A stretch of DNA of 64,000 nt from Nitratireductor sp. GISD-1A_MAKvit. Lineage in GTDB: Bacteria > Pseudomonadota > Alphaproteobacteria > Rhizobiales > Rhizobiaceae. Shown here in pieces: positions 7,208 through 48,686 of this stretch. The DNA is taken from positions 2,231,001 to 2,295,000 of the forward strand of contig NZ_CP161920.1 of assembly GCF_040819555.1 (NCBI RefSeq). Direction: 5' to 3'. The translations under genes and the position numbers were made by a program. The first letter of the stretch is position 1. Every line of letters starts with the position of its first letter. The notes under the pieces are model-generated. The model did no database searches and was not told where the DNA came from. It worked only from the letters and a program-made list of their open reading frames with translations.

Positions 7208-7549
<342 letters not shown>

Positions 7550-21830: not shown

Positions 21831-21839
21831 GAGGCGGGA

Positions 21840-24589: not shown

Positions 24590-24599
24590 GGAGGAAACC

Positions 24600-26751: not shown

Positions 26752-26787
26752 GGCTGGTTGCAACCTGCCCGAATGGCATCAAAATGG

Positions 26788-26816: not shown

Positions 26817-26850
26817 TTGGCAAAGAGCTTCAGACCGATCCGGAGGACCA

Positions 26851-28942: not shown

Positions 28943-28952
28943 GGGAACAAAA

Positions 28953-29972: not shown

Positions 29973-29986
29973 TAACACTTGTTATG

Positions 29987-30013
29987 GGCTCCCCCGCGAC
30001 AGGCGGGGGAGCC
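29987..30013 (+). terminator. Intercistronic hairpin after tctC-like gene
   Basis: A perfect 11-bp stem, GGCTCCCCCGC (29987-29997) with GCGGGGGAGCC (30003-30013), and loop GACAG. No U-run follows. It sits between the binding-protein gene and the TctA-like gene, as expected for an mRNA stabiliser giving more binding protein than permease. Confidence 0.6.
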
Positions 30014-30092
30014 TCGGTCACTTCACCTTTCTGCAACCGAAAACGTCTCGCAGTCAGGGGCCGGGCTACGCTGGCTCTTTCTGTCGACAGGC

Positions 30093-32647: not shown

Positions 32648-32649
32648 CG

Positions 32650-33156: not shown

Positions 33157-33160
33157 TGCG

Positions 33161-34000
33161 ATGAAACTCTCTTTGTGCAATGAAGTCTTGCGTGACCTTC
33201 CATTCGAGGAGCAGTGTCGTCTGGCTGCCGCTCTTCGGTATGACGGGCTGGAGATTGCGCCTTTCACCCTGTCGGACGAACCTGCCTCGGTTCCTCTCGC
33301 AGAGCGCCGGCGGCTGCGCCAGGTGGCTGCCGATTTCGGGATCGAGATCACCGGACTGCACTGGCTCTTGACGGCACCGGCGGGACTTTCCCTGACGAGT
33401 GACAACGAGAGCGTTGCCAGCCGCACCCGCGATCACATGCTGGCGATGGTCGAGCTCTGTTCCGACCTTGGCGGCAGTGTGCTCATCCATGGGTCGCCCG
33501 GTCAGCGGCAGCTTCGCGACGCTGCTTCGCCAGAGCGTGCGCGCGAGATCGCCGCGGCGCATCTCGCTGCGGCAGCGGATGCAGCGGCCCGGGCCGGTGT
33601 TGTTTACTGCATCGAACCGCTTGCACCCTCCATGGACGATTTCGTCAACACGGTTGCCGACGCGGTGAAGCTGGTCGAAACCATTGGCTCGACTGGCTTT
33701 GCGACCATGCTCGACACCTTTGCCGCGGTGGGCGGCGAAGCCGAGCCAGCCGAAGCCGTTCTGGACCGATATCTGCCGGGCGGTCATGTGCGTCACATTC
33801 ATTTCAACGACCGCTCGAAGCGTGGGCCGGGGCTTGGCGAAGATCGGTTTGCGCCAATCATCGATTGTCTCGTCCGGCACAACTATGACGGCGTGATCGC
33901 CGTGGAACCTTTTGACTACCACCCCGACGGGACGGGTGTGGCTGCCTATGCTGCGGGTTATGTCCGGGGACTTTTTGAAATGCGGAAGGAGCATCCATGA
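33161..34000 (+). CDS. Sugar phosphate isomerase/epimerase family (AP endonuclease 2-like TIM barrel)
   Basis: A 279-residue TIM barrel starting MKLSLCNEVLRDLPF. Metal ligands typical of the xylose isomerase-like family are visible: Glu in VYCIEPLAPS, Asp/His in MLDTFAAV and HVRHIHFND, and Glu in GVIAVEPFDYHPDG. Such proteins interconvert keto- and aldo-sugars or epimerise them. Overlaps the next gene by ATGA, and is third of the catabolic enzymes in module A. Confidence 0.85.
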   Translation: MKLSLCNEVLRDLPFEEQCRLAAALRYDGLEIAPFTLSDEPASVPLAERRRLRQVAADFGIEITGLHWLLTAPAGLSLTSDNESVASRTRDHMLAMVELCSDLGGSVLIHGSPGQRQLRDAASPERAREIAAAHLAAAADAAARAGVVYCIEPLAPSMDDFVNTVADAVKLVETIGSTGFATMLDTFAAVGGEAEPAEAVLDRYLPGGHVRHIHFNDRSKRGPGLGEDRFAPIIDCLVRHNYDGVIAVEPFDYHPDGTGVAAYAAGYVRGLFEMRKEHP

Positions 34001-35475
34001 GTACTGCCAGGCTCAAGATAATCGGTGGCCGCATCGGCATTGCCAATGCGTTTGCGCGCATGCCCTTCCGTTTCGGTGTCGTCACCATGGAGGCGGCTGC
34101 CAGCGCCACGCTGGAGCTTGAGGTTTTCGTCGATGGTCAGCCTGTCCTCGGCTACGCTTCCGATCTTCTTGCCTATAAATGGTTCGACAAGCGTCCGGAA
34201 AAGACACCGGCTGACAATGTCGCAGACCTGCTCTGGGTGATCGAGGAGGCACTGACCGTGGCAACCGCCCTGTCGGAAGGGTCTGTCTTCTCCCTGTGGC
34301 GGCAGCTTGACGAAGAGGTCGACCGGCGGGCGCTTTCAGCCGGGTTTAACCGGCTCGGTGCCTCCTTCGGTGTTTCGATGGTGGAGCGCGCCATGATCGA
34401 CGCGCTGGGACGGGCGACCGGGCAAGGCTTTTTCGACATGGTGCGCAACAATGCGTTTGGCATTGAGGGCGGCGCGGTCTTTCCCGAACTTGCGGGCATG
34501 CCGCCAGCCTACATCCTTCCCGACAGACCGCTGGAGCGTATCGCGTTGCGCCATACGGTCGGTCTGGTCGATCCGATCGAGGCGGAAGACATCGCGCCGG
34601 CGGACCGGCTTGACGATGGACTGCCCGAAACTCTTGCCGATTATATCGAGCAGGACGATCTGAGCTATCTCAAGATCAAGATCGCGGGTGACCCAGCCTC
34701 GGATATGGCCCGGCTTGAGCGCATCGCCGCATTGATGGAACGGACCGGCAGGGCATTCGCACTGACGCTCGATGGCAATGAACAATATAGCCGGCTTGAG
34801 GATTTCGCGGCGCTGATGGACGCCATCCGCGCCAACCCGGCGCTTGAGCGCTTCTATCAGTCGATCCTTTTCATCGAGCAGCCGCTGGAACGGTCGGTTG
34901 CACTTTCGGCGCCGCTCGACCCTCACGCTCTCAGGGCAATCGGCAAACCGCTCCTGATCGACGAGGCCGATGGCTGGACGCGCGCCTATCATGAAGCGAT
35001 TGCGCTCGGTTATCGCGGCGTGAGCCACAAGAACTGCAAGGGGGTGATCCGTTCCCTGTTGAACGCGATGATCGCGGCCGAGCGCAATCGCGCGGCAGGG
35101 CAGGGCACCTACTTCCAGTCGGCAGAAGATCTGACCTGCCTTCCGGTTGTTTCCCTGCAAGCCGATCTCGCCGTCGTGGCCGCCCTTGGCATCACGCATG
35201 TGGAGCGCAATGGACACCACTACTTCCACGGCCTTAAGCACCTGCCCGCATGTGAGGCGGAGGCCGCACTTGCCGCCCATCCCGATCTTTATCGGCGCGA
35301 GGGGGCTTCCATCGTGACCGCCATCAATGGCGGCGCGCTCGATGTCGCCTCATTGCAGGTCCCCGGCATGGGGTTTGCCTGTCTGCCCGACCTTGGCCAG
35401 CGCACCCGCGCGACCGACTGGACTTTCACTAGCCTCAACAAAAGCGATGCCGGACATGCCGGCACAGGAGACTGA
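33997..35475 (+). CDS. Enolase-superfamily (mandelate racemase-like) dehydratase
   Basis: A 492-residue enzyme with the enolase-superfamily barrel. KxK catalytic lysines are in YLKIKIAGDP; metal ligands appear as Asp in LTLDGNEQ, Glu in LFIEQPLE and Asp in LLIDEADGW; a second-side lysine is in SHKNCKG. It is longer than the usual 350-400 residues, mainly in the capping domain. Members dehydrate sugar acids to 2-keto-3-deoxy acids; with the DapA-like aldolase downstream this suggests a non-phosphorylative acid-sugar pathway. Substrate is unknown. Confidence 0.8.
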   Translation: MSTARLKIIGGRIGIANAFARMPFRFGVVTMEAAASATLELEVFVDGQPVLGYASDLLAYKWFDKRPEKTPADNVADLLWVIEEALTVATALSEGSVFSLWRQLDEEVDRRALSAGFNRLGASFGVSMVERAMIDALGRATGQGFFDMVRNNAFGIEGGAVFPELAGMPPAYILPDRPLERIALRHTVGLVDPIEAEDIAPADRLDDGLPETLADYIEQDDLSYLKIKIAGDPASDMARLERIAALMERTGRAFALTLDGNEQYSRLEDFAALMDAIRANPALERFYQSILFIEQPLERSVALSAPLDPHALRAIGKPLLIDEADGWTRAYHEAIALGYRGVSHKNCKGVIRSLLNAMIAAERNRAAGQGTYFQSAEDLTCLPVVSLQADLAVVAALGITHVERNGHHYFHGLKHLPACEAEAALAAHPDLYRREGASIVTAINGGALDVASLQVPGMGFACLPDLGQRTRATDWTFTSLNKSDAGHAGTGD

Positions 35476-35479
35476 GACC

Positions 35480-36508
35480 ATGACCCGATCACTGCCAGAC
35501 ACAATTCTGGATGAAGCCCAGCTCGAAGACATGCTGTCTCAGCCAAGCGACCGCCTCGTATCCGTACTCGCCGAGCTCGATGGAGACATCACGATCCTTG
35601 GCGTTGGCGGCAAGATGGGCCCGACGCTGGCGCGGATGGCAAAGCGTGCCGCGCCCCACAAGCGTGTCATTGGTGTTGCGCGCTTCTCGGAGCCCGGCCT
35701 CAAGGAAAAGCTGGAAGGCTGGGGCATCGAGACCGTCTCCTGCGATCTGCTCGATCGCGAAGCGGTCGAGCGCCTGGAGAAAACCGAAAACGTGATCTTC
35801 ATGGCGGGCCGCAAATTCGGCTCCAGCGGCAATCAGGGCCTGACATGGGCGATGAATGTTCATGTGCCAGCAATCGTCGCCGAAGCGTTCAGGGCGTCGC
35901 GCATCGTCGCTTTCTCCACCGCCTGCGTTTATCCTTTCATCAAGATTACCGAGCAGGGTGCGCGCGAGGATGTGGTGCTCGATCCCCCCGGCGAATATGC
36001 CAATTCCTGTGTCGGGCGCGAGCGCATGTTCGAGCATTTTGCAAGCGTGCATGGAACCCGCGTGGCGCTGGTCCGGCTCTCCTACGCGATCGATTTGCGC
36101 TATGGCGTCCTGCACGATGTCGCAAACGCGGTCCAGCAGGGCGAGCCCGTGCAGATCGACAGCGGCCATTGCAATGTCATCTGGCAGGGGGATGCAAACG
36201 ACATTGCGTTGCAGTCTCTCGCGCATGCGGATAATCCGCCCTTCGTGCTCAATCTGTCCGGTCCCGAACTGGTCAATGTGCGCAGCCTGGCACAGAGATT
36301 TGGCGAGTTCTTCGACAAGGAGCCGGTTCTCGCAGGTTCCGAACAGGACGAGGCATGGATCGTTGACACGAGCCTGCAGCAGAAACTCTTCGGCTATCCC
36401 TCCGTGCCGCTGCCACGGTTGATCGAGTGGACGGCAAAATGGATGAAAGAGGGCGGGCGCTCGCTCGGCAAACCGACCCATTTCGAGGTGCGCGATGGAA
36501 AATACTGA
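35480..36508 (+). CDS. NAD-dependent epimerase/dehydratase (SDR), atypical active site
   Basis: The start MTRSLPDTIL at 35480 follows the enolase-like gene by 4 bp; 342 residues. The Rossmann motif is ITILGVGGKMGPTLARM and the serine of the triad is in FSTACVYPF. The usual Tyr-x3-Lys reads GEYANSCVGRER: Tyr is kept but the lysine position is Cys. It might be a reductase using a different acid-base residue, or a non-catalytic member. Its 3' end overlaps the TetR gene. Confidence 0.78.
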   Translation: MTRSLPDTILDEAQLEDMLSQPSDRLVSVLAELDGDITILGVGGKMGPTLARMAKRAAPHKRVIGVARFSEPGLKEKLEGWGIETVSCDLLDREAVERLEKTENVIFMAGRKFGSSGNQGLTWAMNVHVPAIVAEAFRASRIVAFSTACVYPFIKITEQGAREDVVLDPPGEYANSCVGRERMFEHFASVHGTRVALVRLSYAIDLRYGVLHDVANAVQQGEPVQIDSGHCNVIWQGDANDIALQSLAHADNPPFVLNLSGPELVNVRSLAQRFGEFFDKEPVLAGSEQDEAWIVDTSLQQKLFGYPSVPLPRLIEWTAKWMKEGGRSLGKPTHFEVRDGKY

Positions 36509-37217
36509 TCGGCCGTCGGCCGGAGCTGACGCCGGCCGGAAAGGCGCCTCCAAGACAGGGCAGAAAGCGACGCGTGACGCGGCAGCGACACGCGCACGAA
36601 TTCTCAACGCGGCCTCGAAAGAGTTTGCGAAAAAGGGCCTCAAGGGAACGCGCATTGACGCGATTGCCAAGCGCGCTCGCTGCAACAAGGCTCTGATCTA
36701 CCATTATTTCGGTAACAAGGAGGCCCTGTTCAGCACGGTTCTTGAGAGAAATTACGAGGCCATTCGCAGCGCCGAGCGGCAGCTGGATCTCGCTCACCGT
36801 GAACCCGTGGCCGCCATGCGCGAGCTCATCGGTTTCTCTTTCGACTATGTGAGCGCGCATCCGGAGTTCATATCGCTTATCAATGACGAGAACATGCATG
36901 GTGGTGTGCATGTGGCGCACTCGGCCAAGGCGAGGGACCTGAACAGCCCGCTCGTGGCGATGATCGACACGATCCTTGAGCGCGGGGAAGGCGAGGGCAA
37001 GTTCCGCTCCGGCGTCGATCCCGTGCAGCTCTACATATCCATCGCAAGCATCTGCTATTTCTTCATTGCCAACCGGTCCACACTGTCGGCGATCTTCGGT
37101 CTGCCGAAAACGCCGGAAGTGCTTGCGCAGCGCCGCGAGCACGTGATCGAGGTCATCCTGGGCTATTTGCGCCCGGAAGCCGACGGACAGGGCCCGCCTT
37201 CCATGCCGAAGGCCTGA
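36495..37217 (+). CDS. TetR/AcrR-family transcriptional regulator
   Basis: A 240-residue repressor with a polar N-terminal extension of about 30 residues, then the TetR HTH (FAKKGLKGTRIDAIAKRARCNKALIYHYFGNKEAL). The C-terminal ligand domain ends near YLRPEADGQ. It overlaps the epimerase gene by 14 bp and is followed by the DapA-like aldolase. The inverted repeat before tctC is its most likely operator, and a module intermediate its inducer. Confidence 0.9.
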   Translation: MENTDRPSAGADAGRKGASKTGQKATRDAAATRARILNAASKEFAKKGLKGTRIDAIAKRARCNKALIYHYFGNKEALFSTVLERNYEAIRSAERQLDLAHREPVAAMRELIGFSFDYVSAHPEFISLINDENMHGGVHVAHSAKARDLNSPLVAMIDTILERGEGEGKFRSGVDPVQLYISIASICYFFIANRSTLSAIFGLPKTPEVLAQRREHVIEVILGYLRPEADGQGPPSMPKA

Positions 37218-37233
37218 CGACGAAAGTTTCATC

Positions 37234-38286
37234 ATGAAAATCAGTGATCTTCCCGCAACGCCACTTGCCGCCCTGCGCAGGGGAGGCGTGATCCCGGCAC
37301 ATCCTCTGGCGCTTAATGCCGAGCGCAGGCTCGATGAGCGCCGCCAGCGCGCCCTGTCGCGCTATTATCTCGATGCGGGTTCCATCGGGCTTGCTGTTGC
37401 CGTTCACACCACGCAGTTCGAGATCCGCGATCATGGTCTTCTGGAGCCGGTGCTTTCCCTTGCCGCGGAAGAGGCGAAGGCCCATGCGAGCACGCCCTTC
37501 ATGGTCGCCGGCGCTGTCGGCGAAACCGCACAGGCTGTGCGCGAGGCCGAACTTGCACGGTCCAAAGGCTATCACGCAGTGCTTCTCAGTCTGGCCGCAA
37601 TGAAAGAGGCGAGCGTCGACGAACTGATTGCGCATTGCCGCGCCGTCGCCGATGTCATCCCGGTTGTGGGCTTTTATCTGCAGACGGCCGTTGGCGGGCA
37701 GCCTCTGCCCTATTCATTCTGGCGGCGTTTTGCTGAAATCGAGAATGTGGTGGCGATCAAGATGGCGCCGTTCAATCGCTACCGCACGCTTGACGTGGTC
37801 CGCGCGGTCATTGATGCCCGTGCGGAAGACCGCATCACACTCTACACCGGAAATGACGATCACATCGTCTCCGATCTGATGACGAAGTTCACATTCATGC
37901 GCGACGGCGTGCCGGTCAGCGTGCGGATCAAGGGCGGGCTTCTGGGCCACTGGTCGGTCTGGACCCGCAAGGCGGTAGAGCTGATCGAGGAGATCCATGA
38001 GCGCCCCGACAGCAGAAGCGCCAGCGAATGGCTGGAGCTCGATGCCCGCACCACCGATGCCAATGGCGTTTTGTTCGATGTGGCAAACGATTTTGCCGGC
38101 TGCATTGCGTGCCTGCACGAAGTCCTGCGCCGGCAGGGGCTGCTCGAAGGAACCTGGTGCCTCAATCCCGACGAGACCATGGGGCCGGGCCAGATGGAAG
38201 AGCTCGAGCGCATCTTACGCGACTACCCCGAACTCAACGATGATGCATTCGTTGCTGCCAATCTGGAGCGCTGGCTAAAAGGCTGA
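37234..38286 (+). CDS. Dihydrodipicolinate synthase-family aldolase (module A)
   Basis: A 350-residue DapA-family TIM barrel, longer than true DapA (about 292). The Schiff-base lysine is in VVAIKMAPFNRY and the tyrosine in VVGFYLQTAV. Residues GAVGETAQAVREAELAR replace the DapA GTTGE start of the active site. Such enzymes cleave or hydrate 2-keto-3-deoxy acids. It follows TetR in the run and is the last gene of module A. A dehydratase-aldolase pairing with the enolase-family enzyme is inferred. Confidence 0.85.
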   Translation: MKISDLPATPLAALRRGGVIPAHPLALNAERRLDERRQRALSRYYLDAGSIGLAVAVHTTQFEIRDHGLLEPVLSLAAEEAKAHASTPFMVAGAVGETAQAVREAELARSKGYHAVLLSLAAMKEASVDELIAHCRAVADVIPVVGFYLQTAVGGQPLPYSFWRRFAEIENVVAIKMAPFNRYRTLDVVRAVIDARAEDRITLYTGNDDHIVSDLMTKFTFMRDGVPVSVRIKGGLLGHWSVWTRKAVELIEEIHERPDSRSASEWLELDARTTDANGVLFDVANDFAGCIACLHEVLRRQGLLEGTWCLNPDETMGPGQMEELERILRDYPELNDDAFVAANLERWLKG

Positions 38287-38626: not shown

Positions 38627-39463
38627 GTGACTGTTGCTGCCGTTGAACGATGCCTGTCCATTCTCACCACGCTGGCCGGTGAGCGCGACCCGATGGAACT
38701 GACCGATATTGCGGTGCGCAACGGTCTGCCTGCTTCGGCAGTGCATCGCATTCTGACAACGCTTGCCACCCATGGCTGGGTGACCCAGGACCCGGACACC
38801 CAGCGTTACGCGCTGTCGTTGCGGATGAGCACTCTGGCCTTCAGGAACCTCGATGCCCGTGCCGTGCCCGAGATGGTGCAATCCGTGCTCGATGCACTTG
38901 CCCAGCGGACCCGCGAATATTGCCGCCTTGCCATCGTTGAGGGCGATGACCTCGTATGGGTGGCGCGGGCGCAGGGAGCAACGTCGAGCCTGCGCTATGA
39001 GCCGCCCATGGGACAGGAGATCATTCTTCACGCGACGGCAAACGGAAAGGCGTGGCTTGCCACCCTTCCGGAAGAACAGGCGCTCGAACTGGTGCGGGAG
39101 CGCGGGTTCGATGTGAAGCGCGCGCTGGGGCCAAACAGCGTCTCCAGCATGAAGGAGCTCAAGGTCGCGCTCGAAGAGACGCGTGCTTTGGGATACGCCA
39201 CGTCCATCGAGGAGGCGGAAGCCGGCACCATGGCACTTGCCGTTCCGTTCCATTCGGGGCTTGGGCCAAATGCCCGCGTTGCCGGGACGATCAGCGTTGC
39301 CGGGCCGCTGGTCCGCCTCACTCCGGACCGGCATGAAGAACTGGCGGGCCAGCTGCATGAAGCGGCGCGCGAGATCGGTGGTATCTGGCCTTTGCGAAAC
39401 CGCCAGCGCGACCATTTTCCAAGCGGTTCTGCGCTTGACGAATTGCGCGGCAAGGGAGCCTAG
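38627..39463 (+). CDS. IclR-family transcriptional regulator
   Basis: The GTG at 38627 follows CAGGAGGACCCC and yields MTVAAVERCLSILTTLAG, the usual IclR start; an upstream extension in frame is discarded. The 278-residue protein has a winged HTH (LTDIAVRNGLPASAVHRILTTL) and an effector domain. The C-terminal region AEAGTMALAVPFHSG matches the IclR signature. It is first in a run of seven genes and is 2 bp from the permease. It presumably senses the substrate of this operon. Confidence 0.92.
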   Translation: MTVAAVERCLSILTTLAGERDPMELTDIAVRNGLPASAVHRILTTLATHGWVTQDPDTQRYALSLRMSTLAFRNLDARAVPEMVQSVLDALAQRTREYCRLAIVEGDDLVWVARAQGATSSLRYEPPMGQEIILHATANGKAWLATLPEEQALELVRERGFDVKRALGPNSVSSMKELKVALEETRALGYATSIEEAEAGTMALAVPFHSGLGPNARVAGTISVAGPLVRLTPDRHEELAGQLHEAAREIGGIWPLRNRQRDHFPSGSALDELRGKGA

Positions 39464-39465
39464 CC

Positions 39466-40224
39466 ATGCCCGTTCACCAGCGTGTCCTTCGCATCGTTGA
39501 GCCGATGATCTGGTTTGCCGGTCTGCTTGTTCTCTGGGAATTGGCAGTGCGACTGGGAAATGTCCCCTCCTATGTACTGCCGGCTCCAAGCGAATTCATG
39601 CTGCGGATTTTTACTGATTATCAGCGCCTGGGCTATCACGGACTGATCACGACGAAGCTGATCATCTACGGTTTTCTGGCTGGCGCTATACCGGGCGTTA
39701 TGCTGGGCTATCTCGTCGCCCGCTCGAAACTGGCCGAGCTCACGCTCTATCCCATGGTGGTGTTCATCCAGGGGCTGCCGAAGATCACGCTCGCGCCGCT
39801 GATGCTCGTATGGTTCGGTTTTGCCGACTTCCCCAAAATCCTGCTGACGGCACTCATCACGTTTTTCCCGGTGCTGGTGGACAGCGCCCATGGTTTCCGC
39901 TCGATCGACCGGCGCCAATATTACCTGTCGAAATCCGTCGGCGCCTCCTGGTGGCAGACATTTCGCCTTTTTGAACTGCCCTCCGCAGCGCCAAGTATTT
40001 TTGCCGGTTTCAAGACGACGATCGTCATCGCCGTGACCGTCGTGATCGTTGTCGAGTGGCTCAATTCGCAGGACGGGCTTGGATATCTCGTGCTGCGTGG
40101 AATGGACAGTTCCGACACCTCGCTCATATTCGCGGTTCTGGTTGTGGGATCGCTGATCGGTGTGTTGCTGAGTGCCGGAATGGCAATGATCGAAAGGGTT
40201 TGCCTGCCCTGGAAGCAGGTTTGA
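39466..40224 (+). CDS. ABC transporter permease, NitT/TauT (SsuC-like) family, copy 1
   Basis: A 252-residue permease with about six helices. The N-terminal P-S-Y-V-L-P-A-P-S-E motif and the ATPase-binding loop SVGASWWQTFRLFELPSAAPSIFAG are typical of importers of sulfonates, nitrate, pyrimidine precursors or phthalate-like acids. Follows the IclR gene by 2 bp. A second permease of the same type lies two genes further on, so the importer probably uses a heterodimeric channel. Confidence 0.9.
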   Translation: MPVHQRVLRIVEPMIWFAGLLVLWELAVRLGNVPSYVLPAPSEFMLRIFTDYQRLGYHGLITTKLIIYGFLAGAIPGVMLGYLVARSKLAELTLYPMVVFIQGLPKITLAPLMLVWFGFADFPKILLTALITFFPVLVDSAHGFRSIDRRQYYLSKSVGASWWQTFRLFELPSAAPSIFAGFKTTIVIAVTVVIVVEWLNSQDGLGYLVLRGMDSSDTSLIFAVLVVGSLIGVLLSAGMAMIERVCLPWKQV

Positions 40225-40291
40225 CTGCATTGCCGTTGCGGTCTCGCACCGCGCGGCAGGTTGGGAACAGAACGACAAAGGAGGAGTGTCG

Positions 40292-41296
40292 ATGAAAACT
40301 CGTATCAAGCTTGCAGCGGGAATGATGTTTGCCGCTGCAGCCATGTTGCCGGGGGCAGGTGCACTGGCCCAGGACAAGATCACAATGCAGATGAACTGGA
40401 CCGCCGACACCGCGCATCTTGGGTTCGCCCTGGCGCAGGTAAAGGGCATTTATGCGGATCACGACCTTGAGGTGGAGCTGGTCGAAGGCCGCGGATCGGC
40501 CGTTGCCGCGCAGCTTGTCGCCACGGGACAGACGGATATCGGTTATGCCGACACGGTGGCCACGCTCAACGTCGCCTCGCAGGGCGCGCCGATCAAGATC
40601 ATCTCGACGATCTGGAAATCGGGACAGTTCGGCATTCAGTATCTGGCCGATTCCGGCATCAGTGAGCCCAAGGATCTGGTGGGCAAGAAGCTGGCCGTGT
40701 CACCCGGCTCCGCCATGCTGCCGCTGATACCGGTCTTTCTGAAGGCCAATGGCATCGAGGAAGGCGAAGTCGAGATCGTCAATGCCGCCGAAAGCGCCTT
40801 CATCGGTCTTCTGACCTCCGGTCAGGTGGACGCGGTCTCCCAGACACCGGAAAACATCGTGGTGCCGCTGGCTGCCGAAGGCATCGAGGCGGGGAACATG
40901 TATTTCTACAACAATGGCGTTCCGCTCGCGAGCCTCAGCCTTGTGGCACGCGAAGACAGGCTCGCCGAGCGCCCTGATGTCTATCGCCGCTTTATCGAGG
41001 CGACGGCCGAAGGATGGAAGGCTGCGATGGAAGACCCGAAAGCTGCCATCGAAGCGATTTACGAGGTTTTTCCCGAAACCGAACACCCGCGTGAAGCGCT
41101 GACCCAGTCTGCCGACTACAGCTTTTCGTCGGTCTGCCCGGGCGGGCAGGGGGACATCATCGGCATGACCCCGACCGAGACCTGGGACACGATGTATCAG
41201 GTGATGACGACGACCATGGACCTTTCTGCCGATCGTCCCGTCACCGACTACTACACGAACGATTACGTTCCCGAAAACGCGGTGACCTGCCCGTAA
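40292..41296 (+). CDS. ABC transporter substrate-binding protein, NMT1/THI5-SsuA type
   Basis: The ATG at 40292 follows AGGAGG with 7-nt spacing (a GTG two codons earlier is less likely). The signal peptide ends at GALAQDK. The 334-residue protein has the type II fold with GIYADHDLEVELVEGRGS and QLVATGQTDIGYAD, typical of SsuA/TauA/ThiY-like binding proteins. Two Cys occur in the C-terminal part (VCPGG and VTCP). The ligand cannot be deduced. Confidence 0.9.
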   Translation: MKTRIKLAAGMMFAAAAMLPGAGALAQDKITMQMNWTADTAHLGFALAQVKGIYADHDLEVELVEGRGSAVAAQLVATGQTDIGYADTVATLNVASQGAPIKIISTIWKSGQFGIQYLADSGISEPKDLVGKKLAVSPGSAMLPLIPVFLKANGIEEGEVEIVNAAESAFIGLLTSGQVDAVSQTPENIVVPLAAEGIEAGNMYFYNNGVPLASLSLVAREDRLAERPDVYRRFIEATAEGWKAAMEDPKAAIEAIYEVFPETEHPREALTQSADYSFSSVCPGGQGDIIGMTPTETWDTMYQVMTTTMDLSADRPVTDYYTNDYVPENAVTCP

Positions 41297-41314
41297 CAGG
41301 CAACACTGTTTCCC

Positions 41315-41339
41315 ACCGGAGGCGTGTTGCGCCTCCGGT
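41315..41339 (+). terminator. Intercistronic hairpin after binding-protein gene
   Basis: A perfect 10-bp stem, ACCGGAGGCG (41315-41324) with CGCCTCCGGT (41330-41339), and loop TGTTG; no U-run. It lies between the binding protein and the second permease, in the same place as the hairpins after glpV and the TctC-like gene. Confidence 0.6.
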
Positions 41340-41395
41340 CCATGATGACCTGTGAATGCGGCGCGCCCGATGGCGTACCAGGCTCCGAGCAGACC

Positions 41396-42250
41396 ATGAC
41401 CGATCAAGTCACGACGAGAACAGGCAGCGCTTCAGCGGCTGCCGCCGATACGCGCACGACCGCCGACAGGCTGGTCGAAAGGATTGCAGCGATCCGTCGC
41501 TCCACCACCGCGTCAATTGCCGTCGCCATCGCTTCAGTGGCGCTTCTCCTGCTTTTCTGGGAGGGGCTGACATATGTCTACAACGTGCCGACCTGGCTCG
41601 TCCCAAGGCCCTCGCAGTTCCTCGACCGTCTGATCACGGACCGGGCGACCATCGGCTGGCACGCTCTTTGGACCTCGATCACCATCATCGAAGGCTTCGC
41701 ACTCGGTGTTCTTGTGGCTGTTCCGCTGGCGCTTGCCATCGTGTCCGTCAAGGCATTCGAACGCGGTCTCTATCCGATGATCGTATTTCTCAACATCATG
41801 CCCAAAACCGTGATCGGGCCCATCCTCATCATCTGGTTCGGCATCGGTCCGCTCGTCTCGGCCCTGATCGTCTTTCTGATGTGCTTCTTCCCGATCCTGG
41901 TTGACGCCATGCTCGGCTTCAAGGCGATCGATCCGCGTCTTTACTACATCTCGCGCTCCATGGGGGCGAGCAGGCTGCAGACACTCTGGAAGGTTCGGCT
42001 TCCCGCCGCGATGCCACAGATATTCGCTGGAATGAAGATTGGCGTCGTCAAGGCAGTGGAGGGCGTGATCATCGCCGAGTTCATTGCCTCCGACAAGGGG
42101 CTCGGCTTCATGATCATGCAGGCGTCTGCCTTCATGGATATTTCCCTGATGTTCGCCGGTTTGATTGCGGCTGCGCTTGTCGCGCTCCTGTTCAACGGCA
42201 CCATGGGGTTTCTTGAACACCGTCTTGCGCCGTGGGCGCAGGGCACCTGA
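41396..42250 (+). CDS. ABC transporter permease, NitT/TauT family, copy 2
   Basis: The likely start is the ATG at 41396 (MTDQVTTRTG); one at 41342 is possible but follows the hairpin immediately. The 284-residue protein has about six helices, the motif VPTWLVPRPSQFLDRL, and the ATPase loop SMGASRLQTLWKVRLPAAMPQIF. A hydrophilic N-terminal tail of about 40 residues distinguishes it from copy 1. It would pair with copy 1 in the importer. Confidence 0.88.
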   Translation: MTDQVTTRTGSASAAAADTRTTADRLVERIAAIRRSTTASIAVAIASVALLLLFWEGLTYVYNVPTWLVPRPSQFLDRLITDRATIGWHALWTSITIIEGFALGVLVAVPLALAIVSVKAFERGLYPMIVFLNIMPKTVIGPILIIWFGIGPLVSALIVFLMCFFPILVDAMLGFKAIDPRLYYISRSMGASRLQTLWKVRLPAAMPQIFAGMKIGVVKAVEGVIIAEFIASDKGLGFMIMQASAFMDISLMFAGLIAAALVALLFNGTMGFLEHRLAPWAQGT

Positions 42251-42277
42251 CTTCAACACCTGTTTGGGTATTTGCCT

Positions 42278-43126
42278 ATGACCCCTTCCAATCAGACCAG
42301 GGAAACTCAGCCGGCGCCTACGGTGCCGAATGGAACGAGCGGTGTGTCAATCCGTGCACGGGGGCTGACCAAGGTCTTTGGCCACGGGGATGCAGCCTTC
42401 CACGCGCTCGGCCCCATCGATCTCGACGTAAAACCGGGAGAATTCGTCAGCCTCATCGGCCCGTCCGGTTGCGGCAAGAGCACCACGATGCTTCTGGCCT
42501 CCGGTCTGGAACCGTCGAGCTCGGGAACGCTCGAGGTCGACGGAAAACCGCTCACCCGGCCCATTTCGGAAGTCGGCATCGTGTTTCAGGACCATCTCCT
42601 GCTTGATTTCCGCACCGCCATGAAGAACGTGATGCTGCAGCAGGAGATCCGTGGCCTCGACCGGAAGGTCATGCAGGACCGGGCGAGGGAACTGTTCGTG
42701 CGCCTTGGCATCGAGGGGGCGGAGAACCGCTACCCGCGCCAGCTTTCCGGCGGCATGCGCCAGAGGGTGTCGATCGCACGCGCACTGGTGCACGACCCCA
42801 CAATGCTCCTGATGGACGAGCCGTTCGGAGCGCTTGATGCGATAACGCGAACGCAGATCCGCCATGATCTCGAAATGCTCTGGCTCGAAACCCGCAAGAC
42901 GGTGCTTTTCATCACCCACTCCATCGAGGAAGCCGTGGGTCTGTCCGACCGCGTGCTGGTGATGTCCAAGAGCCCGGGCAGGATCGTTGAGGAGATTCAT
43001 ATCGATTTGCCGCGCCCCCGGCCGGCCCATCTTGGAGAATATCCCGAGTTTTCCAAATATGCCGAACGCATCTACACGATTTTCGAGAAGCTGGGCGTTT
43101 ACAGGTTCAGCCACAACAAGAGCTGA
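42278..43126 (+). CDS. ABC transporter ATP-binding protein, NitT/TauT (SsuB-like) family
   Basis: A 282-residue ATPase. Walker A is GPSGCGKST, the signature LSGGMRQR, Walker B LLMDEPFGALD, and the switch His is in FITHSIEE. The start is taken at the ATG at 42278 (MTPSNQ). It is the engine for the two permeases just upstream and is the last transporter gene of module B. Confidence 0.93.
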   Translation: MTPSNQTRETQPAPTVPNGTSGVSIRARGLTKVFGHGDAAFHALGPIDLDVKPGEFVSLIGPSGCGKSTTMLLASGLEPSSSGTLEVDGKPLTRPISEVGIVFQDHLLLDFRTAMKNVMLQQEIRGLDRKVMQDRARELFVRLGIEGAENRYPRQLSGGMRQRVSIARALVHDPTMLLMDEPFGALDAITRTQIRHDLEMLWLETRKTVLFITHSIEEAVGLSDRVLVMSKSPGRIVEEIHIDLPRPRPAHLGEYPEFSKYAERIYTIFEKLGVYRFSHNKS

Positions 43127-43185
43127 CCCGGGTTGAACGGAAAAGCCAGCATCTCAGTCAGGAAAACCAGCCAGCGGGGCCAGGT

Positions 43186-44022
43186 GTGCGCAATCAGATA
43201 GTGATGAACCACGCAACGGTGCGGGTGCAGTACGGCATGGCGCAGTTTGTCGAACAATGCGCCGCACATGGGTATGCAGGCGTTTCGGTATGGGGGGCGG
43301 AGGTCGAGAAGGTCGGATTTGCCACCGCCCGTTCGATGATCGCCGATCATGGGCTTTTCGTGTTTGGGTACAATCGCGCCGGACCGCTCATGGGCCCCGA
43401 CTTCCACCGGAAAGACGAAGCGATGGATGCAGCGCGCCGGGAAATCGATCGCGCAGCCGAAATCGGTGCCGATCACGTCATGCTCTTTCCCGGTGGCTTC
43501 GTATCTGGCGAGAAGGATCTGAGCGGAGCGCGGCAACGGTTCGCGGAGATGGCGAAAGTGCTTCTCGACCATGCGAAGACGGCCGGCATCCGTCTGGCGC
43601 TGGAACCGTTGCATCCGATGCTCGTGGGCGACCGGACCTGCATGGGGACACTGCGCCATGCCAATGATCTGTGTGACCGGTTGGGGGAAGGTACCGGTAT
43701 TGTTGTCGATGCCCATCATGTCTGGTGGGATGAGGCGCTGGAACCCGAGATTGCACGCGCAGGGGCGGCTGACCGGATCTTGGCCTTCCATGTCAATGAC
43801 TGGTTGTTGCCCACGCGCCATCGTCTGACCGACCGTGGCATGATGGGAGACGGGATCATCGACCTGAAGGGCATGTGGCGCTCAATTCTTGGCGCCGGCT
43901 ATGACGGCCCGCTGGAGGTCGAGATCTTCTCTGAAGACTGGTGGGCAGAGCCCGGAGACAGGGTTCTGGAAATCGCCATGCAGCGATGCCGTGAAATCTT
44001 CGACGGAGACACTGATGCGTGA
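43186..44022 (+). CDS. Sugar phosphate isomerase/epimerase-like TIM barrel (module B)
   Basis: A 278-residue TIM barrel of the AP endonuclease 2/hydroxypyruvate isomerase type. Metal-site residues are seen as Glu in LALEPLHPM, Asp/His in IVVDAHHVWWD, His in AFHVNDWLLPT, and Glu in PLEVEIFSEDWW. The GTG at 43186 keeps the N-terminal QIVMNHATVRVQY strand, with an ATG at 43204 as alternative. It overlaps the AroE-like gene (ATGCGTGA). Reaction unknown; an isomerase or dehydratase such as a 3-dehydroshikimate dehydratase is possible for this fold. Confidence 0.75.
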   Translation: MRNQIVMNHATVRVQYGMAQFVEQCAAHGYAGVSVWGAEVEKVGFATARSMIADHGLFVFGYNRAGPLMGPDFHRKDEAMDAARREIDRAAEIGADHVMLFPGGFVSGEKDLSGARQRFAEMAKVLLDHAKTAGIRLALEPLHPMLVGDRTCMGTLRHANDLCDRLGEGTGIVVDAHHVWWDEALEPEIARAGAADRILAFHVNDWLLPTRHRLTDRGMMGDGIIDLKGMWRSILGAGYDGPLEVEIFSEDWWAEPGDRVLEIAMQRCREIFDGDTDA

Positions 44023-44890
44023 TTTCGAACCGAATTTGCCACAGCCGCAACTCAACGGCGCATCGCGCATTTATGCAGTGTTCGGGGACCCGGTTGCGCA
44101 GGTCCAGACACCGCGCATGATCAATCCCCTGTTTGCCAGCCATGGACACGATATCCATGCGGTTCCCTTCCGGGTGACACCGGCCCAGTTCGAGGCGGCG
44201 TGGCAGGTGTTTGCAGCGCTCGACAATGTGGTGGGAATTGGCGTCACGGTGCCACACAAGATTGCCGCGGCCCGGCGCTGTGCATTGCTGACCGATGCAG
44301 CCCGGGCGGTAGGGGCGGTGAACTGCATAAAACGCCGTCCAGACGGCTCGATGCACGGTGCGCTTTTTGATGGGGTCGGGTTTGTGGAAGGGCTGGGAGC
44401 CCACCGCGTTCGGCTGGAAAACGCGCGCGTTTTGATGATCGGAGCGGGTGGCGCGGGCCGGGCCATAGCGCACGCCCTCGCAAGAGAGGGAATTCGCTCC
44501 CTCGCCGTGCTGGATCCAGATGCCGAAGCAACACGTTTCACCGTCGAAATGGTCAACGGCTCCTGTGGTTTTCAGCTCGCATCCGCTCCCGCGAAAGCGC
44601 AACTAAGCGAGGTGGATGTGCTCATCAACGCGAGCCCAGTGGGGGTGAAGCCGGGTTTGACGCTGCCGATCGACCTTGCAGAGCTGGATCAGGCGATGCT
44701 CGTCGCGGACATTGCCTGCCTTGACCGGGAAACCGGTCTTCTCGAGGCTGCCCGCAAACGGGGCTGCGCCATCAGCGATGGCAACGCCATGCTGAAGGCT
44801 CAGATCGAGCTTATCGCCGGATTTGCTGCGGGGTTCGAGCCGGGCGAGCCGGTGCGGCAGGCTGAACAAAACGCAACGCCACGAAGCTAG
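44015..44890 (+). CDS. AroE-like shikimate/quinate-type dehydrogenase, paralogue 1 (NAD-type)
   Basis: A 291-residue AroE-fold enzyme. The catalytic pair is kept (Lys82 in TVPHK, Asp119 in LFDGVGF), as is GAGGAG at 143-148. The two shikimate-carboxylate serines of SKSP are replaced: AQVQTP. N-T-D reads L-F-D. The NADP-binding N-R-T is replaced by LDPD (Asp167), which usually means NAD preference. It therefore probably oxidises something other than shikimate. It overlaps the isomerase gene and converges on paralogue 2 with a 4-bp overlap. Confidence 0.82.
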   Translation: MRDFEPNLPQPQLNGASRIYAVFGDPVAQVQTPRMINPLFASHGHDIHAVPFRVTPAQFEAAWQVFAALDNVVGIGVTVPHKIAAARRCALLTDAARAVGAVNCIKRRPDGSMHGALFDGVGFVEGLGAHRVRLENARVLMIGAGGAGRAIAHALAREGIRSLAVLDPDAEATRFTVEMVNGSCGFQLASAPAKAQLSEVDVLINASPVGVKPGLTLPIDLAELDQAMLVADIACLDRETGLLEAARKRGCAISDGNAMLKAQIELIAGFAAGFEPGEPVRQAEQNATPRS

Positions 44891-45696
44891 GCGCCGGTCT
44901 CTGCAAGATGGGCGGCAATCGCGCCGACCTGTCCATGGATCATGTGAAGGCCGGAATGGGTGCGGCATCCCAGTCGCTCGGCATGTTCAAGCAGCCGGGT
45001 GGTCTCCGGTTTCGCAATGACTTCCGCAACCGTCATGCCGGCCTGGAGAGCGTCGGGGCTGATGGGGAGAGGGTCATCGGGTTTCATGCCCAGAGAGGTC
45101 GCATTGATCCATATCTCGTCGGGCTGCGGCGTGGCAGCCGTTGCAGCGGTGACCCTGCCGGCCCCAAAAGCCTCGTTGATCCGCGTTGCGAGTGCCTCGG
45201 CCTTGTGTCGGGTCCGGTTGACAATCGTCAGCCGTGAAACGCCGGCCAGAACAAGCTCTGCGGCGATTGCCATTGCTGCACCGCCGGCTCCGATCATGGT
45301 CACGGATCGGCCCTTTGGCTTGATGCCCTGTTTGACAAGGCCGCCGACAAACCCCCTGCCGTCGAACTGGTAGCCGCAAAAGGCACCGTCGGCCTCGCGT
45401 CGGACAACGTTCACGGCTCCAACCAGTTCGGCCAGCGGATCGAGGCGGTCGCACAGGGCCAGGGCGCTCTGCTTGTGTGGCAGCGTGATGCCGAAGCCGA
45501 CAAGATTGGGCAGGGCCTTCAGGCCGGCCCAGATCGTTTCCAGCTCTGTGATGGGCACATGGAGCGGCACGCATACAATGCCGGCGTTCATCCGTGCAAA
45601 CAGCGGATTGATCGCTTCTGGCGTGCGCGCCTGCGCGATGGGATCACCGATGATTCCCATGAGCCTCGTGCTACCTTCAATGGGTATCACCGTCAC
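44887..45696 (-). CDS. AroE-like shikimate-type dehydrogenase, paralogue 2 (NADP-type)
   Basis: A 269-residue AroE-fold enzyme. Lys75 (TLPHK), Asp112 (GYQFDGRGF) and GAGGAA (136-141) are in place, and NRT (160-162) supports NADP. The substrate serines are replaced (AQARTP), as in paralogue 1. Its stop overlaps paralogue 1 tail to tail, and its ATG overlaps the FG-GAP gene by 4 bp. Having two paralogues with matching changes but different cofactors suggests opposed or sequential redox steps on a shikimate-like compound. Confidence 0.82.
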   Translation of the reverse strand: MTVIPIEGSTRLMGIIGDPIAQARTPEAINPLFARMNAGIVCVPLHVPITELETIWAGLKALPNLVGFGITLPHKQSALALCDRLDPLAELVGAVNVVRREADGAFCGYQFDGRGFVGGLVKQGIKPKGRSVTMIGAGGAAMAIAAELVLAGVSRLTIVNRTRHKAEALATRINEAFGAGRVTAATAATPQPDEIWINATSLGMKPDDPLPISPDALQAGMTVAEVIAKPETTRLLEHAERLGCRTHSGLHMIHGQVGAIAAHLAETGA

Positions 45697-47675
45697 CAGC
45701 TCAGCTCCTCGCGCGGCAGCCAGACCAGACTTCCATCCTCCACGCCAACAAGGAGGCCGGGCAAACCCGTCCCCGTCAAATCGACCGCTTCGGGTGCGGC
45801 AACATGCATTGCCATTGCTATGGTTTCGCCGCGAAAGCTGAAGGGCTTGGGATGGGCGAAAACCGGCTCGCTGGCAGTACCAACATTCTCAAGGTAGAAA
45901 ATACCGGCCTGTCCGGTCGTGTGGCGCGGCATCCCGCCGGGACCCGGAGGAACCGAAGCGCGGGCATGAGTGCCCACGATGAGATCGAGCCGGCCGCTCA
46001 TGGTCCAGTCGCAGACACACAGTTTCACCCGGCCGCGTCCACCACCCACATCCTCGGTGAAACGCATCGGTGTGCCGTCTTCCCAATGAAGATGTCGCTT
46101 GTCGCCGAGTTCTGTCTCGCCGAGTTTTCGATAGTCGGAGAGGACGCCTTCCTCATCGAGGGTGAGATAGTGAAGTCCATTGCCCTGGAGCCAGTCGGTC
46201 ACTGCCGGGCGCACACGCCATACGGTCTTCAGGGGCTTTCCTTCGAAGCTCAGGCGCTGGGGTGCCGCCAGTTTCGGCGGCGAGCCGCCTAGATTGCGGT
46301 ACAGCGTCTGATATCCGGTCACATCTCCGACGAGGATATCGAGACGGCCGGTGCCCGACCAGTCCGCAGCCGTGGGGCAACTGTATCCGAACATCTTCTC
46401 CGACGGCCCCTGTATGGAGCCCGTGGGGCCGGCGGCGATACGGATCGGCTTTCCATCGGCCTCAAGCATTGTTTCTCGTGAAAGCGCCGGTGCCTCAGGC
46501 GCGCCGGTCATCTCGTAGTACAGGAGTTCGCCGGTGCTGTTGCCAACCACCAGATCAATGCGCCCGGTGCCGGTGAAATCCGCGGCAACGGGGCAGGGCA
46601 ATACGCCCGCGTGAACAATTGGTCGTGTGGTTTCCACCCGGCCGGCATGTTCGAATACCGGATCGCCGTCGATCGTCTCCCCCGTATTGCGCAGGAAGGT
46701 CACATATCCATCTTCCGCACCGACCAGTATGTCGGGCCGGCCGTCACCATCCCAGTCGACGATGCAGGGCATGTGAATGCACTGGTCGAGCTCAAGCGTG
46801 TTGCCGCAGGGGCTGCGAAGCAGTCTTGTGCGGTCGAACTGATGTCCCTCGACCTGATTGGCGATGTGAAGAATGTTCCAGAACTCACCGCACACGATCG
46901 AGGTGGTCTTGCCATCATCGAAGCTCGCCAGGGCAGGGGCGAGTTGCCCGTAAACCTCCAGGGGCACGTCGCCACTCATCAGCGGGCGCCCCTTGCCAAG
47001 GCGCGGGTTGGACAGCGGCCCTTCGACCTTGAATGCATAGACATAACCGCGCAACGGGCCGCCCAGCCAGCGATTGGCCGGATCGTATCCGCGATATCCT
47101 TCGTCGTTCCATTCCAGCCCGTTTGGCCAGTAATCGTCCCAGTAATCCGTGCCGACGATCAGTTCCGGCCTGCCGTCACCATCGATGTCGTGAAACCGGA
47201 CCATATGAAAATATTCATTGCCCTTGACCCATTCGGCATCGAGTTCAAGCACTATGGGATCGGCAAATTCGGGGTGCTGCCTGCTGCCGATATTCGGATG
47301 AACATGGATGGTCTGGCGCATGCGTGAGGCGGAGACGAGGTGGAAGCTGTCTCCATCCTTTACTGATGTGACGTAGCCGCGCACATTCTCCACCACTTCC
47401 TGTTCGCCCAGGCGCGGCGTTCCGTCCGCGTTCCGTCCGATTTCGCGGCGCAGAAAGACCCGCCCGTCATAACAGGGGTCCCAGGCCGAAAGCAGCAGAT
47501 CCCGCCCTCCATCGCCGTCCCAGTCGACGACATCGACACAAGTGATGATCCGTCCTGCGACGGGCGCACTCTCCACCTCGGGAGCGTAACCGAGAGCCTG
47601 GTCACCGTAGAAAGGTCCCTTCCATACGGTGGCATCGTCTTCCCATCTTTTCACACTCAACGCACAGGACCCCAT
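45693..47675 (-). CDS. FG-GAP/VCBS repeat protein, predicted seven-bladed propeller, no signal peptide
   Basis: A 660-residue protein with seven spaced D-x-[DT]-G-x-G motifs. Three are canonical calcium-type (DWDGDGGRD, DIDGDGRPE, DWDGDGRPD near residues 51, 163, 307) and four degenerate (DFTGTGRID, DWSGTGRLD, DWTMSGRLD, DLTGTGLPG near 366, 438, 556, 632). Each is followed by (L/I)-x-V-G, as in integrin-type beta-propellers. The N-terminus (MGSCALSVKRW) is not a signal peptide, although such proteins are normally exported. The start is uncertain (TTG 47681, ATG 47675 or GTG 47654); no ribosome site is seen and the operator is adjacent. Confidence 0.8.
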   Translation of the reverse strand: MGSCALSVKRWEDDATVWKGPFYGDQALGYAPEVESAPVAGRIITCVDVVDWDGDGGRDLLLSAWDPCYDGRVFLRREIGRNADGTPRLGEQEVVENVRGYVTSVKDGDSFHLVSASRMRQTIHVHPNIGSRQHPEFADPIVLELDAEWVKGNEYFHMVRFHDIDGDGRPELIVGTDYWDDYWPNGLEWNDEGYRGYDPANRWLGGPLRGYVYAFKVEGPLSNPRLGKGRPLMSGDVPLEVYGQLAPALASFDDGKTTSIVCGEFWNILHIANQVEGHQFDRTRLLRSPCGNTLELDQCIHMPCIVDWDGDGRPDILVGAEDGYVTFLRNTGETIDGDPVFEHAGRVETTRPIVHAGVLPCPVAADFTGTGRIDLVVGNSTGELLYYEMTGAPEAPALSRETMLEADGKPIRIAAGPTGSIQGPSEKMFGYSCPTAADWSGTGRLDILVGDVTGYQTLYRNLGGSPPKLAAPQRLSFEGKPLKTVWRVRPAVTDWLQGNGLHYLTLDEEGVLSDYRKLGETELGDKRHLHWEDGTPMRFTEDVGGGRGRVKLCVCDWTMSGRLDLIVGTHARASVPPGPGGMPRHTTGQAGIFYLENVGTASEPVFAHPKPFSFRGETIAMAMHVAAPEAVDLTGTGLPGLLVGVEDGSLVWLPREELSW

Positions 47676-47685
47676 GTTCAATTCA

Positions 47686-47708
47686 AATTTGGAATGCTAT
47701 TCTAATTT
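47686..47708. promoter_or_regulatory. Second copy of the IclR-type palindrome, in a divergent promoter
   Basis: ATTTGGAATGCTATTCTAATT (47687-47707) matches the palindrome before the IclR gene at 18 of 21 positions and keeps the GGAA-N-GCTATTC core. It lies in the 60-bp gap between the divergent FG-GAP and DapA-family genes, so one regulator could control both directions. Confidence 0.7.
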
Positions 47709-47735
47709 CAGTTTTCACAATGTACACACCCTCTC

Positions 47736-48686
47736 ATGAACAATCACAACAAACCTACCAGCTCTCCGGTCTCAGGCGTCATGCCGGTGATGATCACGCC
47801 TTTCACGCGAGAGAACCGGCTCGATCACGGCGCACTTGAACGGTTGATCGAGTGGTATCTGGGGGCGGGGGTGGATTCGCTTTTTGCTGTCTGCCAGTCG
47901 AGTGAGATGCAGCACCTGTCATTATCGGAACGCGTTGCATTGGCCGAGGCAGTGGTGCGCATCGTCAACGGACGCGTGCCGGTGATTGCATCGGGGCACA
48001 TTTCCGAGGCCATGGCCGATCAGACCGCTGAACTGCTGGCCATGGCCAGCACCGGCATTGCAAGCCTTGTTCTCGTCACCAACCGTCTCGATCCGCACCG
48101 CGAGGGGACGGAAGCGTTCAGGCGCAATCTCGATCAGCTCCTGGAAGCGTTGCCACACGATATCGATCTGGGGCTTTACGAATGCCCGGCGCCTTACCGG
48201 CGCCTTCTGAGCGACGAGGAACTGCGGCTGTGCCGCGATACCGGTCGCTTCGTGGTGCTCAAGGATGTCTCCTGTGATCTGGCGACCGTTCGGCGCAGAG
48301 TGGAGATCGTGCGCGGGTCAAGGCTGGCGATCGTCAATGCCAATGCGGCCATCGCGCGCGAGGCCATGCGTTCCGGTTCGGAAGGGTTCGGCGGCGTTTT
48401 CACGAATTTTCATCCCGACCTCTACGTCTGGCTTTATGCCAATTGCCACCGGTCCGATGCGCTCGCTGAAGAGTTGACGGCCTTCCTCGCGCTCTCCGCC
48501 ATGGCCGAGGGAATGGGCTATCCCAAGATTGCCAAGCGTCTGCACCAGCGCCTTGGGACCTTCGACTGCATCCACTCGCGTGTGGTGGATTACGATCTTG
48601 AAGACAGACACTGGGCCGCTGACGAAATACTCAGCCATATCCTGAACGCTGGAGAAGAGTTCCGCCGGCGCATTGCACGGTGCTGA
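47736..48686 (+). CDS. Dihydrodipicolinate synthase-family enzyme (module B)
   Basis: A 316-residue DapA-family TIM barrel. The tyrosine is in GLYECPAPYRR and the Schiff-base lysine in FVVLKDVSCDL. The N-terminal GVMPVMITPFTRENRLD is typical, while the DapA TTGE loop reads CQSSEMQ, so it is not a standard lysine-pathway enzyme. The ATG lies 28 bp after the shared IclR-type operator. Only the fold and Schiff-base chemistry can be supported; it may cleave a keto acid formed by the module B dehydrogenases. Confidence 0.85.
   Translation: MNNHNKPTSSPVSGVMPVMITPFTRENRLDHGALERLIEWYLGAGVDSLFAVCQSSEMQHLSLSERVALAEAVVRIVNGRVPVIASGHISEAMADQTAELLAMASTGIASLVLVTNRLDPHREGTEAFRRNLDQLLEALPHDIDLGLYECPAPYRRLLSDEELRLCRDTGRFVVLKDVSCDLATVRRRVEIVRGSRLAIVNANAAIAREAMRSGSEGFGGVFTNFHPDLYVWLYANCHRSDALAEELTAFLALSAMAEGMGYPKIAKRLHQRLGTFDCIHSRVVDYDLEDRHWAADEILSHILNAGEEFRRRIARC

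Follow-up and report, generated by a model that had tools for sequence, protein, structure and literature searches.

Ten adjoining genes in the 64,000-nucleotide window analysed here (positions 2,231,001 to 2,295,000 of contig NZ_CP161920.1 of Nitratireductor sp. GISD-1A_MAKvit, a 4.1 Mb genome in two contigs) form a real and co-inherited gene set, which runs from an IclR-family regulator to a DapA-like protein and includes an ATP-binding cassette (ABC) importer, a TIM-barrel protein, two shikimate-dehydrogenase-like proteins (AroE1 and AroE2) and a large FG-GAP double beta-propeller protein. Their grouping goes beyond chance, since the genes co-occur in a sample of 60 genomes, keep their order and share a palindrome. 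We give about an even chance to the reading that an oxidised sugar or a sugar-derived acid is broken down by this set, as a self-contained catabolic regulon under IclR control.

Gene set and co-inheritance

All ten genes are open frames (Table 1), and the set of importer, TIM barrel, two AroE-like proteins, propeller and DapA-like protein that had been described from the letters of this DNA (the sequence-only reading) is thereby upheld; the regulator lies immediately left of the interval named there (39466..48686). The IclR frame is open from 38381, with its likely start further in, at the AGGAGG-preceded GTG at 38627. A plus-strand run holds IclR, the two permeases, the binding protein, the ATPase, the TIM barrel and AroE1, while AroE2 and FG-GAP are encoded on the minus strand and run towards AroE1, the overlap there being 4 bases. 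The FG-GAP and DapA frames are divergent and separated by a gap of 54 bases. Scans for sigma-70 promoters and terminators gave results at chance level.

Table 1. Genes and operator-like sites of the catabolic set, numbered from the first letter of the window
Feature	Position	Strand	Remarks
IclR-family regulator, 278 aa from likely GTG start	38627..39463	+	IclR_C and HTH_IclR matches; AGGAGG followed by in-frame GTG
ABC permease 1, BPD_transp_1, SsuC/TauC-like	39466..40224	+	
Periplasmic binding protein, NMT1/THI5 (SsuA) superfamily	40286..41296	+	
ABC permease 2, start uncertain	41324..42250	+	
ABC ATPase, taurine/nitrate-type	42272..43126	+	
TIM-barrel AP_endonuc_2 protein, 3ju2/3qc0 (SMc04130)-like	43186..44022	+	E140, D175, H202 and E246 invariant
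AroE1, shikimate-dehydrogenase-like, probable NAD type	44015..44890	+	K82/D119 retained; SxS and NTD altered
AroE2, shikimate-dehydrogenase-like, probable NADP type	44887..45696	-	K75/D112 retained; SxS and NTD altered
FG-GAP (VCBS) double beta-propeller protein, 653-662 aa depending on start	45693..47681	-	proposed core enzyme
DapA-like class I (Schiff-base) protein	47736..48686	+	K176 and Y148 invariant
Operator-like palindrome 1, TTGGAAAGCTATTCCAA	38570..38586	.	ends 40 bases 5' of likely IclR start codon
Operator-like palindrome 2, TTGGAATGCTATTCTAA	47689..47705	.	within the divergent FG-GAP/DapA gap

Among the 60 sampled genomes, the window's own counted, seven gave a strong FG-GAP match (that of genome G004 in three pieces with TGA) and two further genomes gave weak matches. 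AroE2 was found at 59% identity or above in the same seven genomes, with a 46% relative in an eighth, and AroE1 at 56% or above only in those seven; a TGA flagged in the AroE1 matches of four relatives is the end of the gene, as tblastn shows the frames to be open. The TIM protein was present at 55% or above in the same seven genomes (one via a partial match), and its relatives at 44-46% occurred in five other genomes, with a second copy in G009. DapA was carried by six of the seven FG-GAP genomes, and the binding protein by six of them and one other genome. Ten of the genomes (own included) are from the same genus, and in four of these FG-GAP, AroE1, AroE2 and DapA were all absent at the thresholds used. 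The counts describe linked genes and hence are not independent events. The sequence-only reading had named a lack of co-occurrence in other genomes as one of two refutations, and what was found is the shared presence of FG-GAP, AroE1 and AroE2.

A scan of GTDB with an alignment of 20 FG-GAP homologues, chosen from 120 listed, yielded 37 loci, in which FG-GAP is present by construction and some of which are close relatives. Many come from organisms that, by their names, we take to be Rhizobiales and some from presumed Rhodobacterales, together with a few more distant bins; the nearest FG-GAP loci in named genomes include several of Nitratireductor. The other genes were detected by tblastn as follows: AroE2 in 32 loci, TIM in 27, IclR in 25, DapA in 25, AroE1 in 20 and the binding protein in 17, and since several loci are short contigs, the absences are upper bounds. 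Tblastn was used for these counts instead of the rough gene calls, in which some genes were lacking or placed on the wrong strand (e.g., FG-GAP of locus L051). Duplicates of named loci (L020-L025) were removed before clustering. In every locus with both genes (32/32), AroE2 adjoins FG-GAP and follows it on the same strand.

Regulator and palindrome

In perfect form, the palindrome TTRGAAWNNNWTTCYAA occurs twice in the genome, once before IclR and once in the FG-GAP/DapA gap. Of 35 loci, the window's among them, 29 have it in the 140 bp 5' of FG-GAP, 27 at the equivalent place and two (L038 and L039) at a different place, compared with a mean of 0.9 and a maximum of 4 in a shuffle control. The strict form of the palindrome occurred 41 times in 748 kb (38 sequences) versus 0-2 times in five shuffles, and a tally by hand placed 23 of these before FG-GAP, 12 before IclR, 3 at Gfo/Idh gaps and 3 elsewhere. 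A weight matrix gave 140 matches in 1.03 Mb (49 sequences) versus 7-14 in shuffles, which, like those for the palindrome counts, preserve base composition only. The sites from which the matrix was built were those 5' of FG-GAP in these loci, so that matches there arise by construction; its matches before IclR, kinase and Gfo/Idh genes do not, and palindrome 1 lay outside the matrix-building set. In the Rhizobium and Agrobacterium loci, the matrix also marks the kinase/IclR and Gfo/Idh/IclR gaps.

Counts within the window and the genome weigh against the regulatory part of this reading. One RGAATNNNATTCY was present in the window versus 0.34 expected, which is not above chance, and two sites were found at two mismatches or fewer versus 0.88 expected, a number that 19 of 100 shuffles reach; genome-wide, at one mismatch or fewer, the palindrome count equals that of a reversed-pattern control. 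The case for the palindrome rests on its place and conservation. From these, one local regulon with a shared palindrome before both transcription blocks is likely, and IclR probably binds at the two palindromes, where it would remain until an accumulating inducer released it. The earlier claim of uptake and catabolism under one regulator is supported by the gene set and the recurring palindrome, with control by the regulator probable.

The AroE-like pair

An Asp after the second Rossmann strand is invariant in AroE1 (19/19 sequences) and an NRT motif is invariant in AroE2 (26/26), which we take to mark NAD-type and NADP-type enzymes, respectively; the motifs fit the division into an NAD-type AroE1 and an NADP-type AroE2 that the sequence-only reading had made. 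Both retain a catalytic-type Lys/Asp dyad, K82/D119 in 19/19 AroE1 and K75/D112 in 26/26 AroE2 sequences. The SxS and NTD motifs, like the carboxylate site of AroE, have established roles in shikimate dehydrogenase. Here, the first serine of SxS is replaced by V in AroE1 (19/19) and by A, V or I in AroE2 (26/26), and the NTD motif reads LFD or QFD, with F in place of Thr in 45/45 sequences of the pair, whereas the housekeeping aroE of the same genome has the usual HSRSP and NTD. Scores of 147.8 and 158.6 bits place the AroE-like proteins under the TIGR00507 cut-off of 200.2. Their nearest solved relative, 4k28, is also without the first SxS serine, and the second-best solved relative of AroE2 is the 5-ketofructose reductase 7cok.

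The loss of the first SxS serine was considered as proof of a non-quinate substrate and rejected, as the change is shared by 4k28 and by another AroE-like protein in locus L067 (Rhizobium sp. NXC14), which is encoded beside a QuiC-like gene and keeps NTD. A search for literature on AroE specificity found nothing useful, and the accessible portion of PMC7144000 does not cover the carboxylate site of AroE.

Two annotation matters touch these genes. The assembly has the housekeeping aroE broken into two frames (L003, 1071-2058; own genome, contig C2, about 374.6-375.6 kb). In addition, genes at the AroE1 position are publicly labelled 'ThiF family adenylyltransferase' in L063 (16847-17674), L065 (16842-17672) and L066 (16829-17656), which is probably a misnaming.

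TIM-barrel protein, DapA-like protein and importer

The TIM protein resembles 3ju2/3qc0, and its E140, D175, H202 and E246, presumably metal ligands, are invariant in 22/22 sequences. Against the two-domain QuiC model it reached 42.6 bits (E 2.9e-11), with a cut-off of 1200. Relatives at 44-45% adjoin Gfo/Idh and DUF993 genes in L072 (8285-11487) and L073 (8938-12264), a parallel type of cluster. The DapA-like protein has K176 and Y148 in 20/20 sequences and reaches no NCBIfam cut-off. The binding protein of the importer is related to THI5/THI13 and to a formyl-aminopyrimidine-binding protein.

The FG-GAP protein

The propeller protein matches FG-GAP_3 (PF13517; E 4.8e-20), and no signal sequence is visible by eye, as 18 of 20 aligned proteins have 2-4 residues before RWED and the others 10 and 20. 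Across 20 diverse sequences, 136 columns are invariant; Trp, Tyr, His, Arg and Glu account for many of these, and several fall in loop stretches (170-202, 538-545 and 561-584). The best fold matches shown for the first propeller are glycoside hydrolases, and among the matches listed for models of both propellers the best are GH43, GH62, GH32 and sugar lectins. Matches of the whole protein in Foldseek (DDB1, SF3B and the like) were set aside as a generic multi-propeller resemblance.

On this basis, the FG-GAP protein is proposed to be an enzyme at the core of the pathway. It might instead be no enzyme and serve the pathway enzymes as a cytoplasmic scaffold, carbohydrate-binding sensor or chaperone, which we regard as rather unlikely: lectins and scaffold subunits such as KICSTOR are among the best Foldseek matches of the second propeller alone, and beta-propellers often act as scaffolds according to the part of PMC8023676 available, but the invariant columns, by their residue types and loop positions, look more like an active site, and the best matches shown for the first propeller are glycoside hydrolases.

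Genes in variant loci and the nature of the substrate

FG-GAP matches were found in 33 plasmid records, in 21 of which the match extends over 80% or more of the protein; eight records were opened, seven of which are annotated, and two of these seven stretches end before the far side of the region. The seven loci carry a ribokinase-family gene (7), sugar ABC genes (7), Gfo/Idh (6) and SMP-30 lactonase (5), and the sugar ABC genes of S. chiapasense, located on the far side of electron-transfer flavoprotein (ETF) genes, may not belong. In L067 and L068, sugar ABC and aldo-keto reductase genes are directly followed by TIM, an AroE-like gene and DapA, and in four Agrobacterium records (L063, L064, L066 and L068) the set is located on pAt plasmids typed as conjugative. 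Elsewhere, L044 has an additional amidohydrolase gene, and L070 has a relative of AroE2 (46%) with GMC, SDR, thiamine-pyrophosphate (TPP)-enzyme and ADH genes.

A cyclic or quinate-like carboxylic acid had been the guess of the sequence-only reading. In its fuller form, the substrate would be quinate-like, shikimate-like or another cyclitol carboxylic acid, the AroE-like proteins its dehydrogenases and the TIM protein dehydroshikimate-dehydratase-like, which we consider unlikely. The AroE fold with its retained dyad and the weak TIM likeness to QuiC speak for such a substrate. So do tripartite ATP-independent periplasmic (TRAP) transporter genes in 5/37 loci (L026, where they stand beside the NMT1 importer, L043, L054, L058 and L061), which point to an acid, and L067, in which a QuiC-like two-domain gene (684 bits, cut-off 1200) and the AroE-like gene mentioned above lie 4-14 kb from FG-GAP. 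The latter genes belong to a LysR-side set (2034-10356: AroE-like gene, LIV-type ABC, SMP-30 and QuiC-like gene) before the kinase of that locus. The guess is weakened by the sugar-gene context of the relatives, which is the stronger argument, and by Phe at the NTD threonine throughout the pair, whereas the L067 neighbour keeps NTD; moreover, the TIM protein is far under the cut-off of the two-domain QuiC model, and a QuiC-like annotation appears in one of the seven annotated plasmid loci, with its own LysR gene, while the others have sugar genes. The sugar-type reading is preferred over the quinate-like one, by a margin that is narrowed by the sharing of the serine change with 4k28 and the L067 neighbour and by the QuiC-like gene of L067.

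A further alternative is that a small ring compound is degraded in the form of its glycoside or ribose conjugate, in which case the importer would bind the ring, FG-GAP would cut the sugar bond and a ribokinase would take the pentose. The kinship of the binding protein with THI5/THI13 and the formyl-aminopyrimidine-binding protein would suit this, as would the glycosidase-like first propeller, a ribokinase-family kinase in nine loci (cluster c9) and, in L051, a kinase above the TIGR02152 ribokinase cut-off. Yet the two other kinases tested are below that cut-off, the window's set has no kinase and none was detected in the six named Nitratireductor loci; a conjugate appears quite improbable.

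Besides the TRAP genes and L067, several points weigh against the sugar-type regulon. NMT1-type binding proteins are atypical as sugar binders, and the fold similarity of the propellers shows no function. AroE1 was detected in only the 20 loci given above, partly owing to short contigs. L071 (4675-10143) has IclR (63%) and the importer (66-80%) together with an operator-like site; its AroE-like protein reaches 33%, and no FG-GAP, TIM or DapA homologue is among the frames called in its 17 kb. The sugar-like appearance of the relatives stems from genes for lactonase, kinase, Gfo/Idh and aldo-keto reductase, which are absent from the window's set, the rest of the genome not having been searched for them. 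Finally, no substrate is assigned, and the substrate class and the reactions are inferred.

Proposed route and comparison with known systems

For the sugar-type regulon, the importer would bring the compound into the cell, where AroE1 might oxidise a secondary alcohol with NAD and the TIM protein might isomerise, epimerise or beta-eliminate the keto intermediate. The FG-GAP protein could then dehydrate, hydrate or cleave the sugar ring or its bond, AroE2 could reduce a keto group with NADPH, and DapA may cleave or dehydrate a 2-keto acid, from which carbon would enter central metabolism; we infer this order of steps. In some relatives, sugar ABC, Gfo/Idh, aldo-keto reductase and lactonase genes are added, or TRAP genes are present. 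In its broadest form, the proposal is that FG-GAP is the founding member of a new cytoplasmic family of double-propeller enzymes with lyase, dehydratase or hydrolase activity on keto-sugars, that the AroE-like proteins are sugar oxidoreductases before and after it, and that a new oxidise-eliminate-reduce-cleave carbohydrate route is shared by Nitratireductor, rhizobia and part of the Rhodobacterales, in some cases on conjugative plasmids; this is put forward tentatively, at rather less than an even chance.

A metal TIM barrel placed between an NAD-type and an NADP-type dehydrogenase would match the oxidation-elimination-reduction logic of the levoglucosan route, with DapA serving for the last cleavage and FG-GAP for dehydrating, hydrating or cleaving a bond. 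The Lgd dehydrogenases of that route are reportedly Gfo/Idh-type and not AroE-like. As described in the available part of PMC7676230, levoglucosan catabolism (LgdA, LgdB1, LgdB2 and LgdC) proceeds by oxidation, elimination, hydration and reduction with sugar-isomerase-like proteins, and the likeness lies in the oxidation to a keto-sugar, the beta-elimination and hydration by isomerase-annotated proteins and the subsequent reduction; neither an FG-GAP protein nor DapA is mentioned in that part. A Mn-dependent TIM-barrel beta-eliminase from Agrobacterium has also been reported (PMC10628242, in part). The 5-ketofructose reductase (KFR) of Tatumella is an AroE-like enzyme related to shikimate dehydrogenases and works on a keto-sugar, as proposed for the present pair, while it differs in being a single enzyme; another AroE-like protein tested inactive on 5-ketofructose (PMC7954740, accessible part).

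Quinate/shikimate catabolism (QuiC/QsuB, AroE/YdiB) shares the AroE fold, a TIM dehydratase-like protein and, near one relative, a QuiC-like gene, and differs in the NTD and SxS motifs, altered here, and in the low QuiC score of the TIM protein. To our knowledge, that pathway has no place for FG-GAP or DapA. The SMc04130-type clusters of L072 and L073 are alike in having the TIM protein beside a dehydrogenase, with Gfo/Idh instead of AroE and FG-GAP absent. An uncharacterised member of DUF993 has been solved (4dnh), and no literature was found under the names DUF993, SMc04130 and SMc04129.

Fungal aldos-2-ulose dehydratase has extra domains. The enzyme, as aldos-2-ulose dehydratase/isomerase, is named among VCBS propellers in the available portion of PMC8023676 and is thus a member of the VCBS/FG-GAP propeller family acting on sugars; it differs in giving no PDB sequence match at E up to 1, nor by profile up to 10, and it was absent among the fold matches listed. 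The core VCBS group in that portion has a signal sequence, of which none is visible in the FG-GAP family of the window. The sequence-only reading knew no pathway of this make-up, and none was found in the open-licence literature searched, in which two papers on dehydroshikimate dehydratases came up.

Neighbouring genes of the window

A second catabolic locus at 28902-38286 contains TctC, TctA, Gfo/Idh, TIM barrel, enolase-like, epimerase, TetR and DapA-like genes. Its genes were considered as members of the system and rejected, as four of the eight (TctA, MR34, DapA37 and Epim35) were counted and found in 0/37 FG-GAP loci at the thresholds used; the sole matrix match of the region, inside the Gfo/Idh gene, scored 12.2, at noise level. 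Glycerol-type uptake genes lie at 19168-28345, where glpD (19168-20604) and glpK (26758-27729 / 27569-28345), read by eye, appear split by frame-shifts, which could be assembly indels or real.

Significance

This reading suggests that the names 'shikimate dehydrogenase' and 'ThiF', as given to some genes on rhizobial and Agrobacterium plasmids, should be re-examined. The shared palindrome would offer a direct handle, as the release of IclR from it could be used to find the inducing compound. If the proposal is true, AroE-fold proteins, which usually carry the annotation of shikimate dehydrogenase, would work on sugars in an added route of carbohydrate breakdown, and a likely function would be gained for a large, highly conserved cytoplasmic FG-GAP protein that is now mostly annotated as 'hypothetical' or repeat-containing.

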